In this document: piece after piece, positions 12,040 to 19,453 of the stretch
How the letters are laid out: each line of letters starts with the position of its first letter
Numbering within the stretch: position 1 is the first letter of the stretch
Source: a virus
Strand: one strand, 5' to 3'
IMG/VR virus record: IMGVR_UViG_3300011994_000010
Location: 1 to 22,333 of that record
Length of the DNA stretch: 22,333 bases
Notes under the pieces: model-generated
What the model was told of the DNA's origin: nothing
Seen by the model: the letters and a program-made list of their open reading frames with translations, nothing else
Database searches by the model: none
Program-made: the position numbers and the translations under genes

Positions 12040-14907
12040 TTACGCTGTGAACTTGATGGTTCGGCTTACAGGGTTGATAACCTTGCCAGTTGCGTCGGTT
12101 ACTTGTGGCGTGCATAGGACGCTGTTCTCGCGGCCATACCATACTTTGGCGTCGATAATCTGGCCGTTCGTGTCGTACTTTGGATAAGGCCCTTCGATTT
12201 GGTACGGAGTTTCCACACCATACTTGGTTGCGCCCTTTTGGGTGAGCAGCATCCGTCCGTCTCCAACTGACCAAGGTGCATTGAGTTTCGCGAAGTTACA
12301 CCCTGCGCGCTCACCAAAATAGTTCCCCGTAGTGATGAGGCGTGTGCCATCCGGCTGGGCTAATTTGTAGAACATTTGAGCATTCTCGATGTAGGTTGCA
12401 GCGTTCAGACTGAAAAGGCCAAGATTTGGCTTTTTGAAGCGTGGGCTGCTGCCCATCAAGGCGACAGTTCTGCTGATTTGTTGCAGTAAGGTGTTGTAGT
12501 AGTCCTCTGGGCGGGTACCACCTGGAACTGTCAGGCTCCAAGAGTCGTAGTTGGTTACGGCGCTGTATTTGAAAGTTGGGAGGTTTGCTGGGTCTGCTAC
12601 TGCGGACGCAGCGTTGAAGAAGGCGATACCGTTTTCCCAATCGACAGCATAGGTTGCGCCTGCTCCGGCAATGTTTCCGCTCGCATCGAGGTAACCTAGA
12701 ACCTGGGTTTGTAGTCCCGGCACCGTGACCCCGAAGGTGTTTGTAACTACTGTAGCAATCGATCCGTCGGACTGCAGTTGCTTTTTGGAACGTGGACGGA
12801 CGACGGGGTTTTTGCCTGCGGTAGCTGAGAGCGCTCCGCCTCCGAGGAGGTTATATTTCTTTGTTACGTTAGTTCCATTGGAAACGGCTACTAGGGCACC
12901 GGTTAACGTAGTCTCGCCGGCTTCACCAACTACCAGAGCGGCGTATTCATCGGACGCCAGAATCATTTCGTAATAAGCAGCGTTGTCCAGCTTCCGGCGT
13001 TTGTCCTCGCCGATATGATAGATGGCCCTGGCGATCGACTCGTATCGGGCAGGTCCATCACCTAATTGGCGGACGACATCTGTGGTCAAGCTGACCGCGT
13101 TGCGCCTCCAGTCGGGCTGGTAAGATTGCCATGCCAAGTTGATAGCGCTCTCTGGGATTCCGTTGCCCTCTGGTACGAGAATGTCTAAGAGGCCAGTTGC
13201 GGTATTCATCGTCGCTGCGCTCGTGAAGGTCTCCACTGGGATCCTCCACTCTGTGCCGCCGAATGTGTCAGCCATCATAAATTGCAAGCTCTCGACGTCC
13301 TGGAATGCTTGTACTAATACTGCTGTCAGAATGGTGGGCTGATTCAAAAGCTGTGACGTGGTGACGCTCACACTGTCTGACATAAGATTCTCAAATCCCT
13401 GGACGCTGTCGGCTAGAACTTTAACGCCGACCTCTTGCTCGTAGCGAGTAAGGATTTTGTCTACAAATTTCTGGTTCTCTTTCCGAAGGCTCGGATCCAC
13501 CGTCTTTCCGAATTGCACCCCGTACTCGTCGAACGCCTTTGTAATTGCATCAACCATAGGCTTCCATGGCTTTGGTTCGTGTACGCCCTCAAGTCGAGTG
13601 TGTCCGGCCTCGCTCTGTTGCCCGTTGAATCCTACGCCGGCCAGTAATGTTGCGGCAGTCGAATCGCTGAATGCTTTCAGAATAGCATCAAACATGATTC
13701 CTGCGGCTTCCTTGGTGGCGGGTTCAGCCTGCGTGACTGCATCTGTAATTGCCTTTACAGACTTTTCATCCATCTTGCCTTTTAAGGTCCCGATCTTCTC
13801 GTCCATGAATGTCTTAACTTCGGCCTTTGCCACTGTTGCTTGTTTGGACGCTGTTTCTGCTGCTTGTTGGACGGCCAATGCGTCAAGTGCCGGCTTGGCT
13901 GTTTCTGCTGCTACCGCAGCGAAGGCTGCACGTACATTGGGATCCTTTAGGGCTTCCATTAAATCTTCAGGTTTGAACACTTCGGTCATTCCCCCTTTAT
14001 GTTGAGAGTCAGTCATGCTGCTCCCTGCTCCTACCAATTGGCGGGTGGCTATATACTGCCTAGCCAGGTCGTACCGTTCATAGTTGCCGGGATTAACTAG
14101 GCGTAGGTCAGCAGTTGCCGTCGTCGTCGATGTAAGGGCTGTATCGGAGATGAAAATACCCTTACACTTTGGGCACTCATAGAAATCAACGTCTCCGTCG
14201 TTGTCTCCGTCTTTTGGTTCCAGTGTACAACTGCAAGAAGGACAGGTTTGATCCCCTATTTGGACGCTATCTTCGACGGCCTCTGAATCAAGAATTGCGG
14301 TCATTTGGGCGTCTGTCAGAATCTGAACGACCCCGCATCCATCTGTGGCTGGATTCGCCACCACATCGAAGCTCTGTATGTCCAGAGAAGTGGCCACATC
14401 GACCATTACGCCATTTATGGATTTTCTTATCGATGTCCCAAGGGCGCGCATACTTATTCCGACTGGTACGCCTTGCTTAATTAGTGCCTTGAGGTCCTTT
14501 CCCTTGGCCGTATCCAGTATTACAGAATCAAGGAAAACCTCGCCATCCTTCATGAATAGGTCGGTGCCCTTAAGGACTGAATTTTCGAGCTTGCTATCGA
14601 AGATCACTTTGTTGCTATTGACCGCCTTCAATGCCTTTGGGTGTGGATTCTCTCCGACCATTTTACCTGGCTTGATATAGGCTTCGATTGATCGTTGGAT
14701 GCCATCCGTCATGACTGTATCTGGGTATAGGCGATTGTTGTCATTGATGACATTTACCTTTGTTCCACGCCAGCGCACTTTCATCGGTCCATCATCCGTT
14801 TTTGCGGCGTCCGTTATTATCTCCGGTGTTATAGTTAGTAAGTGCGACATATCATGGTTTACGGATCCTGTTTTGGCAGAGGCTATTATTTCCCTCAGCT
14901 TGGCCAT
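12040..14907 (-). CDS. Prohead protease - scaffold - major capsid protein fusion (955 aa)
   Basis: One uninterrupted frame joins parts that are usually separate genes (xkdF and xkdG in PBSX). Residues about 1-200 resemble T4 gp21-like S80 prohead proteases: RLYP near 59-62, GENPHP with His89, GISMRALG with Ser152 and DVVANPATD with Asp181 fit the His/Ser/Asp pattern. Residues 222-248 form a zinc-ribbon-like module (C222, C225, C245, C248) with an acidic loop. Residues about 300-420 are Ala/Lys/Glu-rich coiled-coil scaffold. From about 440 on, a capsid protein follows, with a helix near FENLMSDSVSVTTSQLLNQP and FGGTEWRIPVETF. Start ATG has AAAGGAG at 7 bases. An internal ATG at 14016 (Met298) with upstream AGGAG/GGGAG may start a shorter scaffold-capsid product. 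Confidence 0.9.
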   Translation of the reverse strand: MAKLREIIASAKTGSVNHDMSHLLTITPEIITDAAKTDDGPMKVRWRGTKVNVINDNNRLYPDTVMTDGIQRSIEAYIKPGKMVGENPHPKALKAVNSNKVIFDSKLENSVLKGTDLFMKDGEVFLDSVILDTAKGKDLKALIKQGVPVGISMRALGTSIRKSINGVMVDVATSLDIQSFDVVANPATDGCGVVQILTDAQMTAILDSEAVEDSVQIGDQTCPSCSCTLEPKDGDNDGDVDFYECPKCKGIFISDTALTSTTTATADLRLVNPGNYERYDLARQYIATRQLVGAGSSMTDSQHKGGMTEVFKPEDLMEALKDPNVRAAFAAVAAETAKPALDALAVQQAAETASKQATVAKAEVKTFMDEKIGTLKGKMDEKSVKAITDAVTQAEPATKEAAGIMFDAILKAFSDSTAATLLAGVGFNGQQSEAGHTRLEGVHEPKPWKPMVDAITKAFDEYGVQFGKTVDPSLRKENQKFVDKILTRYEQEVGVKVLADSVQGFENLMSDSVSVTTSQLLNQPTILTAVLVQAFQDVESLQFMMADTFGGTEWRIPVETFTSAATMNTATGLLDILVPEGNGIPESAINLAWQSYQPDWRRNAVSLTTDVVRQLGDGPARYESIARAIYHIGEDKRRKLDNAAYYEMILASDEYAALVVGEAGETTLTGALVAVSNGTNVTKKYNLLGGGALSATAGKNPVVRPRSKKQLQSDGSIATVVTNTFGVTVPGLQTQVLGYLDASGNIAGAGATYAVDWENGIAFFNAASAVADPANLPTFKYSAVTNYDSWSLTVPGGTRPEDYYNTLLQQISRTVALMGSSPRFKKPNLGLFSLNAATYIENAQMFYKLAQPDGTRLITTGNYFGERAGCNFAKLNAPWSVGDGRMLLTQKGATKYGVETPYQIEGPYPKYDTNGQIIDAKVWYGRENSVLCTPQVTDATGKVINPVSRTIKFTA
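14014..14032 (-). promoter_or_regulatory. Possible internal ribosome site and start for scaffold-capsid product
   Basis: Inside the protease-capsid gene, AGGAG (14032-14028) and GGGAG (14025-14021) lie 11 and 4 bases before an in-frame ATG (14016-14014, Met298). This is exactly at the border between the zinc-ribbon region and the scaffold helix. A second ATG (13989) follows a GGGGG tract but is too close to it. A nested product from Met298 would be 658 residues. Confidence 0.4.
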
Positions 14908-15013: not shown

Positions 15014-17191
15014 TTAGCTTGCCTCGACCACCGTGCACCGGCACCGCGGATGCGCTGGCAGGCTTGCTTCTATTTCGTCAATCGTGAATACTTCACCGTT
15101 GTTACCACTGCAGATCGGGCATGTTCTAGCATCCATGACGGCCCGCCATTCTAAACGATGAACACCGACCTCCCTATATGTCGCCGTTAGGCCCTTAGAG
15201 TATGCAAAGGCTAGTTCTGTGCGGGCGATCATTTCGGCGCGCCCTACTGGTGAGTCGCAGTTTACCACAGACCGGATTCGACGAATCGTATCGGCCATGT
15301 TCTCTTGGCCGCGGTAGGCTGCCGCCATTTGGTCCTGCAGTGCTTTACGCGTCGTAGCGTTGATCTTGGTCACTCGCACGCTACTCTGAGTCTGGAAATA
15401 GTGAGTAATGTCTGGGTTTATAAAGTCGGTCGCGACCTCGATCTTGACTTGCTTCGCTACATTGGACCGAGCATAACCGGCAGCCGTCTCGTATAGTTGG
15501 AAGAAGGCGTCCACAAATCCATCCTGGTGATCCACCCATGCCTTGTCAAACAGGTCAGTAATGTGTTGAATCGCCAGCGGTGGTGGCTGGACGGCGTCGG
15601 TGTATACGCTACCTCGCAAGGTCTCGATCTTATTGATGGCTGCCTCCAGGTCCGGTTCCATGTCGGCTAGAACTTTGCCGTAAAGTTTGCGAATCTTGAC
15701 TACAAATCCCGCCTCTATCTTAGCGGCCTTCGCCCCGTGTAGAGGAAAGAACGATTTGAGCTTTTTTTTTACGTCGATCGTATCTGTGAGTGGCACCTTG
15801 CTCAGTGGACTGGTCGATGGATTTGACGGGTTGACGGTGGCTTGCATGACTAGCTGCTCCTGACGATCCTCTTCCAACTCTAGCCTTATGGCCTCTAGCT
15901 CGGCCTCGATGGCTGCCTCGCCCTCAAGCCCGACGTCTTTACTAATTACGGTTAGTGCCGTCTTTCTGCTTAAGAGGGGATCAGGTTGTGTCGCTCTTAG
16001 CTTAACTACGCGCTCCACTCGATCGTTGGCTGTCTCATTGTCATCATCGAACCAGCGGACGTTGTAATCTACTAGGAGAGGGTTTATCCCTTGAAGGGAA
16101 AGCGCAAAATCAAAAATGAAGCGCAGCCCGCTATAGGGTGATGAGTCTCCATTTTCTAATAAGCCTCGTAGCTCTTGTGTATCCTCTTTGAACTGAGACC
16201 GTTGGTCCTCTACGATGTCCCTGTTTACGTTCTGTCCAAAACCTAAAATGTGCAGCGGGACCGCTGTTCCGATCATGTAAACTTCCTGCAAGTGCCTGAC
16301 GTCATCGATCTCGTCCAGGTGTGCGTCTCCGTCTAGGGTCTTAATATCGGTCAATCCATTACTGTAATAATCAGTGGTTATCTGGGCCGTCTTTGGCGTG
16401 AGCTTGTTTGTGTCTTTATATTTTTCGACTTCCGTCCAGTTTTGTGGATTGTCCTTGGTGCCTATGCTATGGAGTCTCCGCTGCGGCGCCCTGGTCCGTC
16501 TCCGAACTACCAAGTCCTCTTCTGTCATATTCAGCTTGCGCCAGTATCCCCGGCATGCTAAGTATTGGCTCTGTCCGTAGCGGTCTCCCTCTTCATGGTC
16601 ATATCGGATGTGGTTGATCGCCCAGAGTGGAAATTCCCCCAGGACTTGCAGTGATATTGGGTCGATTTGTTGAAATGCTTTATTTACGTCCGGGAAGTTT
16701 CCCGTCATGTCATCGTTACGCTGCATCGTTATGGCCGGAAGCCGTTTTATGTTCTTGATCTTGCGTTCTTTAAGGTCGACGATTGGATTTAGGAATAAGT
16801 CGCCTTCTTTCGGTAGTATCCTGGCCCAGCTCGGCAGCTTGGCGTTGATTTGGCAATCTCTCATAAGTTCGTTGATTACCTCTTGTGCTCGGGAAGCCAT
16901 GTCATCACTGGTCTCGCTGGTTACTGTTACTGTTATCCCTCGCCGCACTGTTGTTGCTGCCAGAACCTTGTTAGCCCGCTTGATCCGTGTATCCGATCGC
17001 ATCATTAGGTCAATCTCTCGGAGCATAGTCCGTCGGTCCCATTCCAGCCGAAACATCTCGTATTCCCATATGGTCGGAGATGTCTTTATTACTAGGGAGT
17101 TGTCTTCTGTCGATGCCTTGCCTCCACGATCAGGAAGTAAGTCAACGAATTTTTGGGTTATATTATTCATGGTGTTTTTAAACCAGCCCAA
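15014..17191 (-). CDS. Portal protein fused to MuF-type head morphogenesis domain (725 aa)
   Basis: Residues about 40-470 are a portal protein: WEYEMFRLEWDRRTMLREID, RIKRANKVLAATTVRRGITV, LFLNPIVDLKERKIKNIKRL and DRYGQSQYLACRGYWRK are typical of the SPP1/PBSX portal ring. Residues about 500-725 form a MuF-like minor head protein domain: GRAEMIARTELAFAYSKGL and the C-terminal RTCPICSGNNGEVF ... HPRCRC with C691, C694, H714, C717, C719, a probable zinc site. Fusion of the two is known in some phages. The start is TTG (17191) with GGAGGTGAG 6-7 bases upstream. Between the two parts lies an A9 run at K475-K477 that may allow a 490-residue portal-only product. The gene sits 14 bases after terL. 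Confidence 0.93.
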   Translation of the reverse strand: MGWFKNTMNNITQKFVDLLPDRGGKASTEDNSLVIKTSPTIWEYEMFRLEWDRRTMLREIDLMMRSDTRIKRANKVLAATTVRRGITVTVTSETSDDMASRAQEVINELMRDCQINAKLPSWARILPKEGDLFLNPIVDLKERKIKNIKRLPAITMQRNDDMTGNFPDVNKAFQQIDPISLQVLGEFPLWAINHIRYDHEEGDRYGQSQYLACRGYWRKLNMTEEDLVVRRRTRAPQRRLHSIGTKDNPQNWTEVEKYKDTNKLTPKTAQITTDYYSNGLTDIKTLDGDAHLDEIDDVRHLQEVYMIGTAVPLHILGFGQNVNRDIVEDQRSQFKEDTQELRGLLENGDSSPYSGLRFIFDFALSLQGINPLLVDYNVRWFDDDNETANDRVERVVKLRATQPDPLLSRKTALTVISKDVGLEGEAAIEAELEAIRLELEEDRQEQLVMQATVNPSNPSTSPLSKVPLTDTIDVKKKLKSFFPLHGAKAAKIEAGFVVKIRKLYGKVLADMEPDLEAAINKIETLRGSVYTDAVQPPPLAIQHITDLFDKAWVDHQDGFVDAFFQLYETAAGYARSNVAKQVKIEVATDFINPDITHYFQTQSSVRVTKINATTRKALQDQMAAAYRGQENMADTIRRIRSVVNCDSPVGRAEMIARTELAFAYSKGLTATYREVGVHRLEWRAVMDARTCPICSGNNGEVFTIDEIEASLPAHPRCRCTVVEAS
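15712..15770 (-). promoter_or_regulatory. A9 slippery run with in-phase A_AAA_AAG between portal and MuF domains
   Basis: Nine As (15770-15762) followed by G read GTA AAA AAA AAG in frame, so the dnaX-type heptamer A AAA AAG is in the correct phase for a -1 shift. After a -1 shift, 13 codons follow to a TAA at 15722-15720; the +1 frame also closes after about 15 codons. A perfect 6-bp stem CCTCTA/TAGAGG (15745-15740 with 15717-15712) begins 15 bases after the run, somewhat far for a stimulator. No Shine-Dalgarno-like stimulator is seen at the usual 10-base distance upstream. A9 alone can cause RNA polymerase slippage. Confidence 0.45.
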
Positions 17192-17205: not shown

Positions 17206-18522
17206 CTAAAAAAGATCACTATAATCGGCGTTAAGGATATCCTCATAGGTTGTAACTTGAGCTTCAGCCCTTGGTTCAGCGTAGCTCATAATTGCGAATA
17301 TCACGTACCTTAAGGCATCCATCGCGTGATCGAACTTTTTAATCGGCTTGTCTTCTCCTTTTTGTTGAGCTTTCTCGTCCCAAGTGTAACTAGCGAATTC
17401 AGCCAAGGTGTTCTTGCACTCACGGTAAACAAATAAGGCCAAGTTGCTTAATGTCGTACTGACGGTGCGTATTCCATTAAGTACGCTATTATCAGCTTCC
17501 ATGACATTTGCAACTTGGTCTTTCCTAAGTTGGTTTATGAAGGACGCTGCGGAAGGATCAATGAATATTCCTGAAACAGCTATCCCTTTGATAAATTCTT
17601 GGAAGTCTCGGGAGTACTCCCCATCGGTTTTCTGTCGGCCTGTAATGTGGCTATCGTAATAATATTCTTTGACTACATAGTACTTGCCGTCCTTAACGCC
17701 AATCAAGAGAAACACACATGGATTACTCGTTCCATAGTCCACACCTACATAGTATTTTTCGAATCCTTCGGGTAACTTCTTAATCTCGTGAACATCATCT
17801 TTAAACATGTCATAGATAACACCCTCAGCAAGCACCCACAGCCCCAGGATATATCTCTTAAAGAATATGCCGGTATACATCCGGCGGTACCGATCCCTTA
17901 CTCGTTCACTGAGCGAAAGATTATCGTCCATTGTGAAGTGTAGGTGGACGGCGTTCTTTTCTTCAAGTTTATCGATCCACTCTACCTTGAACCAGTGATA
18001 GGGCCCCTCAGGGTTGCAGTTGAACCAAAGCTTTGCACCATCCACAGAGCAACGGGCAGTGGCTTGATTAACGAACGACTCAGGCATTAGCGCCACTTCG
18101 TCGAAGAACATTCCAGCAAGCGTTATGCCCTGGATTAAGTCTTGACTGCTCTCGTCTTTTCCACCGAAGATATAGAATTCGTTGCTACGACCTTTGTAGC
18201 TTATCGTAAGATAATTGTCTGCCCGATGATCCTTGACCTTATACCCTCGACCCTTGAGTATTACCTTGAGCGGTGTGATTACATTACGCCTGAGTGAACC
18301 AATGGTCTTGCCTGAGATTCCAAGGTTTACTCCGTTAAACGTTTCCATGGCCCAAATGACATAAGAAAGAGACATAACCACGGTTTTTCCTGCACGAACC
18401 GATCCGTCGCAGATTATCGCGTCCTTGTCTTTGACAGGCGATTTCGGCATCCACCAGGTCAGGACTTGGAGCTGCTTTTTGGAAAAGGCCTTAAACTTGA
18501 AAGACGCTTGTTTAACGCTCAT
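17206..18522 (-). CDS. terL: Terminase large subunit (XtmB / PBSX type)
   Basis: A 438-residue packaging motor. The ATPase part has Walker A GSVRAGKT (residues 40-47) and Walker B MFFDE with D141/E142. The nuclease part shows the RNase H-like acidic residues: D262 in GVDYGTSNP, D322 in IFIDPSAA and the C-terminal FDHAMDALRY (D398, H399, D402). The order and spacing are typical of the PBSX XtmB family and the length is standard. I start it at ATG 18522, with GGGAGA 6-8 bases upstream; it overlaps the terS end by 11 bases, as is common for terS/terL pairs. The frame is open further upstream into terS, but without a ribosome site. The enzyme translocates DNA through the portal encoded next. Confidence 0.97.
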   Translation of the reverse strand: MSVKQASFKFKAFSKKQLQVLTWWMPKSPVKDKDAIICDGSVRAGKTVVMSLSYVIWAMETFNGVNLGISGKTIGSLRRNVITPLKVILKGRGYKVKDHRADNYLTISYKGRSNEFYIFGGKDESSQDLIQGITLAGMFFDEVALMPESFVNQATARCSVDGAKLWFNCNPEGPYHWFKVEWIDKLEEKNAVHLHFTMDDNLSLSERVRDRYRRMYTGIFFKRYILGLWVLAEGVIYDMFKDDVHEIKKLPEGFEKYYVGVDYGTSNPCVFLLIGVKDGKYYVVKEYYYDSHITGRQKTDGEYSRDFQEFIKGIAVSGIFIDPSAASFINQLRKDQVANVMEADNSVLNGIRTVSTTLSNLALFVYRECKNTLAEFASYTWDEKAQQKGEDKPIKKFDHAMDALRYVIFAIMSYAEPRAEAQVTTYEDILNADYSDLF

Positions 18523-19453
18523 CGTCTTCTCTCCCGTGGTCGTTTGAAACGTCCTCGAATTCGTTCCATGCCTCGTCACTTTTGCCATCTAACGCTTCCA
18601 TGAATCCGTCGTCAGGCGTTTCTTCATCTGAATCGTCGACCTTTTTCTTCTCAAAGTCGAACCTGGCCTGATCGAGTTTGAGCTTTTCGTCTTCGATTCG
18701 ACGTTTGTGTTTATCGGGTAGGAGGTCGAGGTACAGTTCCAATTTTTCTAGGGCCTTCATTTTGTCGTGAAGCTTAATACTCACCCCGTCCTTACCCTGC
18801 TTGACCTCGCTTATCAAGGTGCCGTCGATCTCTGAACTTGGCTTAAAGTCAACAAAGTTTACAGTTTTTAAGACTGCTTTCTTGTCTTTCCCCTTACCCT
18901 CGTAGACTGGACCATACATATTCATGACCGGAACATCTCTTTGTCCAAAGTCCAGGTAGTCGGTTATGTCAGTAAATGCAATATCTATATACTTCTGCAG
19001 TACCGCCATAACCTCTAGGCCAATGCCTTCCCTAATATTTAGCTTTAGCCGATCGATCTCTTTTTTTACACAAGGTTTTACAATATGCTTATACCCTTCA
19101 GCATTTGCAGTATTATATCCACATTCGTATGCCTTCTGATATGCCTTAGTAGCACTCCAATACTTCACAAAATACAAACAGAAAAGCCTTTGTTTCTCGG
19201 TGAGATCGAGGCTTTCGTCGGCTTCTATTTCCTTATTATTTACAACTATTCTTATTTTCGGTTCTCGCTTCGGTGCTTTACCCTTGCGTGCACCTTGCAC
19301 CTTTTCGGGTGCATCTAAAGGTGCACCTTTTTTCCACTTGCCCCTCTTGCTTCGACTCTTAACAGTGTTATATTTCAAGCCGTACTTTACAGCTAAATCA
19401 ATTAAGTTTATTTCAGTGGATTCATACTCTTTGCGTATCGCTATCCAGTCCAT
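18512..19453 (-). CDS. terS: Terminase small subunit (XtmA-like)
   Basis: A 313-residue DNA-recognition subunit. Residues 1-40 form a helix-turn-helix (LIDLAVKYGLKYNTVKSRSK), a basic linker follows, and residues about 84-136 carry the Terminase_2 core: LTEKQRLFCLYFVKYWSATK, AYQKAYECGY and a KPCVKKEIDRL helix. Later come VLQKYIDIAFTDITDYLDFG and a KLHDKMKALEKLELYLDL helix, both common in XtmA. The C-terminus is highly acidic. The protein is longer than SPP1 G1P (147) and nearer to PBSX XtmA. GGAGGTGG lies about 14 bases before the ATG (19453), a long spacing with no better start in frame. A cluster of GGTGCA/TGCACC repeats lies in its 5' coding part. Confidence 0.94.
   Translation of the reverse strand: MDWIAIRKEYESTEINLIDLAVKYGLKYNTVKSRSKRGKWKKGAPLDAPEKVQGARKGKAPKREPKIRIVVNNKEIEADESLDLTEKQRLFCLYFVKYWSATKAYQKAYECGYNTANAEGYKHIVKPCVKKEIDRLKLNIREGIGLEVMAVLQKYIDIAFTDITDYLDFGQRDVPVMNMYGPVYEGKGKDKKAVLKTVNFVDFKPSSEIDGTLISEVKQGKDGVSIKLHDKMKALEKLELYLDLLPDKHKRRIEDEKLKLDQARFDFEKKKVDDSDEETPDDGFMEALDGKSDEAWNEFEDVSNDHGREDDER
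19289..19330. repeat. Cluster of GGTGCA/TGCACC motifs inside terS
   Basis: TGCACC occurs at 19290-19295 and 19297-19302, GGTGCA at 19309-19314, and the palindrome GGTGCACC at 19321-19328, all inside 40 bases. The motifs are in mixed orientation. They lie in the linker-coding part of terS, where pac-type phages often carry their packaging start site. Coding for GAP/DAP/GAR/KAP in this linker could also explain part of it. Confidence 0.35.

Follow-up and report, generated by a model that had tools for sequence, protein, structure and literature searches.

A gene that joins a phage portal protein and a MuF protein in one reading frame raises a question of stoichiometry: how can an internal protein be present in only one or a few copies on a 12-fold portal, when fusion forces 12 MuF copies unless some subunits are made without MuF? 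Such a gene is present in the window, i.e. the whole stretch of 22,333 nucleotides analysed here (positions 1 to 22,333 of IMG/VR record IMGVR_UViG_3300011994_000010). Portal-MuF fusions are already known, e.g. in Microbacterium phages (PMC7302621). In phage SPP1, unlike in the window, the portal protein gp6 and the MuF protein gp7 are encoded by two separate genes (PMC6316719), so the low copy number of gp7 is set without fusion or slippage. A truncated portal produced from the fused gene would solve the copy-number problem, and slippage inside that gene would explain the low number of internal proteins through gene expression alone.

The fused gene (minus strand; Table 1) has the terminase genes on one side and, on the other, a head gene that contains a protease. 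Within its 725-residue product, Pfam places Portal_T4 at residues 88-323 and MuF at residues 629-721. The score for PF04233 (MuF/SPP1 gp7 family) was 57.5 bits, against a gathering score of 29.6, and the portal-MuF fusion family PHROG 19480 was matched over the full length (residues 25-723). The small and large terminase ORFs share 77 bases (window 18512-18588), so the true start of the large subunit may be downstream of the ATG at 18588. At window positions 12040-14907, one head gene encodes 955 residues that include a prohead protease (Peptidase_S77) and a zinc ribbon. Scaffold and major capsid protein may be located in its remainder; if so, head functions that commonly have a gene each would be fused here too.

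Table 1. Features of the portal-MuF locus and its neighbours (window coordinates).
Feature	Position	Strand	Evidence or remarks
portal-MuF fusion gene	15014..17191	-	ORF, 725 residues, TTG start; Portal_T4 3.7e-9, Phage_Mu_F 2.8e-15; PHROG 19480 1.1e-102
portal part, codons 1-448	15848..17191	-	Pfam, relatives, AlphaFold2
disordered linker, codons 449-480	15752..15847	-	AlphaFold2 pLDDT <50; poorly conserved among relatives
MuF part, codons 487-725	15014..15733	-	Pfam MuF core 629-721; AlphaFold2
A9 run, proposed slippage site	15762..15770	-	GTA AAA AAA AAG, codons 474-477; linker A9 likewise in L032, L028, L029
-1 / one-A-insertion tail, 13 codons, AQIVLSSTRGEGR	15720..15761	-	TAA at 15720-15722
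+1 / one-A-deletion tail, ends GRRPLR	15715..15761	-	TAG at 15715-15717
terminase large subunit gene, neighbour	17206..18588	-	Pfam
terminase small subunit gene, neighbour	18512..19453	-	Pfam

In the AlphaFold2 model of the protein (mean pLDDT only 60, portal core poor), the last portal helix spans residues 425-452 and the helical region of MuF begins at residue 487. As modelled, the A9 run is inside the low-confidence linker that leads from the last portal helix to the first long MuF helix, which agrees with its placement exactly at the portal/MuF border in the initial annotation. The run (T9 on the plus strand) is read so that both A AAA AAA and A AAA AAG are in frame, and the initial observation of the run was confirmed. 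It had also been described as the sole A9 among several A7 runs, and the window indeed has no other run longer than seven: its remaining runs of at least seven are five A7/T7 tracts (3273, 6342, 11920, 19061 and 20441), and A8 is absent. Nine As yield 725 residues, ten As or a -1 shift 490 residues, and eight As 491 residues; these computed products match the early estimate that both alternative frames stop about 15 codons on and that a -1 shift adds a 13-residue tail.

Bacterial RNA polymerase is reported to slip efficiently in vivo on a run of nine As or Ts, and in Thermus dnaX polymerase slippage on such a run is coupled to stops in both other frames (PMC5009743). The window shares this arrangement with the tau/gamma gene dnaX of Thermus thermophilus: an A/T run of at least nine bases lies within one long ORF, near stops follow in both non-zero frames, and slipped mRNA gives (in the window, is predicted to give) a shorter protein. 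It differs in that dnaX encodes a polymerase subunit, while the window gene is a phage head gene known from its sequence.

It is probable that the A9 is a selected recoding site at which slippage, mostly by the polymerase, gives a truncated portal besides portal-MuF. That the run is a real recoding site is very likely; given that, transcription is likely to be the level at which it acts, rather than translation. The host RNA polymerase would slip on the nine-base run, so that part of the mRNA would carry 8 or 10 As. Whichever other frame it enters, translation of slipped mRNA would meet a stop within about 15 codons and yield a portal of 490-491 residues that lacks MuF; unslipped mRNA would be translated into the full portal-MuF of 725 residues. 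With both forms in one ring, fewer than 12 MuF domains would be displayed within the capsid. We infer the occurrence of slippage, its mainly transcriptional nature, the ratio of the products and the assembly of mixed rings. A point against this reading is that slippage efficiency differs between RNA polymerases.

The run might also be fortuitous, AAA AAA AAG being an ordinary part of a lysine-rich flexible linker and the 725-residue protein the only product. At least one A9/T9 was found in 34% of shuffled windows and in 2% of shuffled genes. Because such runs are common in shuffled windows, the case for selection rests on relatives of the gene. These were collected by scans of viral contigs, which gave 43 distinct loci, most of them on metagenomic contigs; no relative was found in 84,980 species genomes by the contig scans.

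The window's own group comprises nine lineages (60% clusters). A linker A9 is present in four of them, i.e. the window, L032 (AGT AAA AAA AAA GAA), L028 (GGT AAA AAA AAA GTA) and L029 (GCA GAA AAA AAA ATA ACT), the portals of the last three being 69-76% identical to that of the window. The run occupies codon phase 2 in the window, 0 in L032 and L028, and 1 in L029. It is situated upstream of a conserved TD motif in L029, and downstream of it in the other A9 lineages; in L029, either shift meets a stop within two codons. Three relatives (contigs of 17-39 kb) have, like the window, no A9 besides that of the linker, and one contig of the L032 lineage has one more. Three of the nine lineages carry other slip sites, namely T9 in L112 and T TTT TTC in L110 and L123. 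In L123 the gene is split, with the MuF part in the -1 frame and the run given as T6. No slip site was detected in the remaining two lineages, L030 and L111. On a contig shared with L003 and L029, an intein (L012:5650-6690; C-LPGDTRV ... THN-C; Pfam Intein_splicing 8.7e-10) interrupts the MuF domain at a conserved HPRC/RC motif of the same gene that carries the linker A9.

Linker A9 runs were also found farther from the window. L105 and L106 (45% portal identity) have an A9 in the window's phase, and both other frames stop after 1-3 codons. L048, L052, L053 and L057 (about 33% identity) have a linker A9 plus a T7; in their sister L059 the run is A8, and the portal and MuF frames differ. Loss or gain of one A (A8 or A10) leads to termination within about 25 codons in every A9 gene. 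The expectation that homologues would retain the A-run was borne out on balance, though with a mixed record: 8 of 41 related loci, including the close relative L030, have no slip site, but exactly nine As are kept in four of the nine closest lineages, in differing phases and once at another place in the linker.

Enrichment of slip sites was quantified in 35 genes, one per 90%-identity cluster (33) plus L059 and Emery, which were retained for their differing run length; these statistics ignore shared ancestry. Runs of at least nine A/T numbered seven in linkers (11.3 kb) and zero elsewhere (66.6 kb; p=1.4e-6, kinship ignored), and runs of at least seven numbered 27 in linkers versus 22 elsewhere (p=4e-11, kinship ignored). 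An in-frame A6N/T6N site occurs in 27 of the 35 linkers; equally sized segments placed at random in these genes gave a mean of 4.4 and no more than 10 over 1000 trials. The stop in the -1 frame is nearer than background (p 0.014), a result driven by the immediate TAA/TGA of the T7 group described below. When whole runs are counted, a phase-2 bias is seen for T runs only and not for A6/A7 linker runs; phase alone is weak evidence, as T runs outside linkers are also in phase 2. For overlapping heptamers the phase test gave p 0.10, and A9 fills all phases.

The richness of the linkers in lysine raises the frequency of A runs and, together with the loci devoid of a site, speaks for chance. The evidence from T runs is unaffected by it: relatives with T runs encode Arg-Phe-Phe rather than Lys, and have frozen codons and a covarying hairpin (see below). 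In addition, long runs are enriched sevenfold to eightyfold in linkers, and most of the genes have a site; taken together, these observations make a fortuitous origin improbable.

Ribosomal -1 frameshifting in the manner of E. coli dnaX, at A AAA AAG or A AAA AAA, would provide the 490-residue portal from unaltered mRNA. The window resembles E. coli dnaX in its in-frame heptamer with a short -1 tail, the stop being 13 codons on. Moreover, in-frame A AAA AAG is found within the linker of L024/L120 and in-frame T TTT TTN in L110, L123 and L047, while the relative L058 (5430-5520) has a complete dnaX-type cassette, composed of GGAGG, a 9-nt spacer, A AAA AAG, a strong stem (z about -3.8) and a -1 stop that follows after one codon. 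For the window, in contrast to E. coli dnaX and L058, no correctly spaced Shine-Dalgarno sequence and no strong downstream stem were found. Its closest Shine-Dalgarno-like match, AAGGTG, precedes the run by about 23-26 nt instead of 10-14, and the region downstream appears to fold weakly (z -0.4 to -1.4 by segment, computed for stem-loops). Furthermore, the A9 of relatives occurs in all three phases, and the length that is kept is nine bases, not seven. Originally, the heptamer A AAA AAG was emphasised; for the window this view is therefore disfavoured, and a purely ribosomal mechanism appears unlikely. On the basis of the nine-base length, the unfixed phase, the stops in both frames and the failure to find a spaced Shine-Dalgarno sequence or strong stem, we favour polymerase slippage as the predicted mechanism. 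As every A9 contains the in-frame heptamer A AAA AAA, the run alone cannot separate the two mechanisms, and they may act together.

A different device is found in a distant branch (about 33% portal identity to the window), whose named members are from Brevibacillus (phage Emery and plasmids L025 and L026). Here, a T7 is located at the start of MuF as CGT TTT TTT, a phase that permits a -1 slip, and in many members TAA or TGA is immediately next in the -1 frame. In 11 genes of this branch, only 6 of 218 columns with an invariant residue also have an invariant codon, and four of these correspond to GCG and CGT TTT TTT. Directly 5′ of the run lies a hairpin, GCGAAGGAAACAGTCCTTCG-TTTTTTT, in which 97% of cells are paired and three of six pairs show a compensatory change. 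Neither the paired percentage nor the covariation score was reached by any of 500 shuffles, and pairing drops to 40-63% in slid registers. Because of the compensatory changes, the GGAGG upstream of the T7 is assigned at least to the 5′ arm of the hairpin and not to a Shine-Dalgarno sequence alone; an additional role as a Shine-Dalgarno stimulator is possible. Hairpins that look unrelated to it occupy this position in L047 and L112.

Intrinsic terminators share this layout of a hairpin followed by a run, as does the site of stem-loop-mediated polymerase slippage in Roseiflexus IS630 (PMC5009743). The T-run relatives resemble IS630 in having a hairpin immediately 5′ of the run, although the IS motif is T5C5. 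The window differs from IS630: a search for a hairpin of the T-run type 5′ of the A9 sites found none, and the window stem score gave p of about 0.4.

In Brevibacillus phage Emery, a putative ribosomal slippage site in gp4/gp5 was reported, with predicted products of 58.9 and 82.5 kDa (PMC4168068; PMC4909266). As in the window, this is a homologous portal-MuF gene with a putative slip site at the same border. Unlike in the window, the run is T6 and not A9, it is the shifted frame that yields the fusion while the zero frame ends at a stop, and the gene was described as a head morphogenesis gene. The T6 of Emery (L006:4446-4461) corresponds to T7 in the near-identical sequence of L051 (5443-5449), and Emery's group used 454 sequencing for later Brevibacillus phages. 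The reported frameshift could thus be a homopolymer miscount, so the split gene of Emery was not counted as independent proof.

One-base differences of this kind would also be expected from phase variation at the DNA level, in which replication slippage would change the genomic run length and toggle MuF in subpopulations of the phage. Besides Emery and L051, they include L059 (A8) versus L052 (A9) and the T6 of the split gene in L123. Single-base homopolymer differences, as in Emery, L059 and L123, can be sequencing errors, however; the conserved hairpin and the dnaX-type cassettes work at the RNA level, and replication slippage would be expected on longer runs than T7 or A6G. We regard phase variation as highly improbable. 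For annotators, portal genes of relatives that are apparently broken at homopolymers may in fact be intact.

On the portal tree (quick search, SH-aLRT only), no fewer than 13 changes are needed to account for the site types and no fewer than seven for presence/absence, which indicates frequent gain, loss and replacement of sites. We lean slightly towards the view that recoding has a hot-spot at the portal/MuF border, rebuilt several times as a bare A9, a terminator-like hairpin with U7 or a dnaX-type cassette, each setting the number of MuF-bearing portal subunits. If true, different slippage devices replaced one another at one spot in evolution and load a 12-fold ring with a defined, substoichiometric cargo, and a structural phage gene joins the few known uses of polymerase slippage. 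Our literature search found no paper on recoding at portal-MuF borders in general, and the prior art consists of the one prediction in Emery. What this analysis adds is the family-wide recurrence of such sites, clades with A9, a conserved hairpin, and slip devices of different kinds exchanged at a single border.

The original proposal of two products from one gene, while still a prediction, has strong comparative support from the recurrence of slip sites at the border and from the stand-alone portals of distant relatives, which at 432 and 473 residues are close to the 490-residue product. In L043 (4001-7288) and L052 (4001-6826), the MuF parts are extended by roughly 230-360 additional C-terminal residues with no Pfam match, which are candidate MuF-borne cargo or effector domains.
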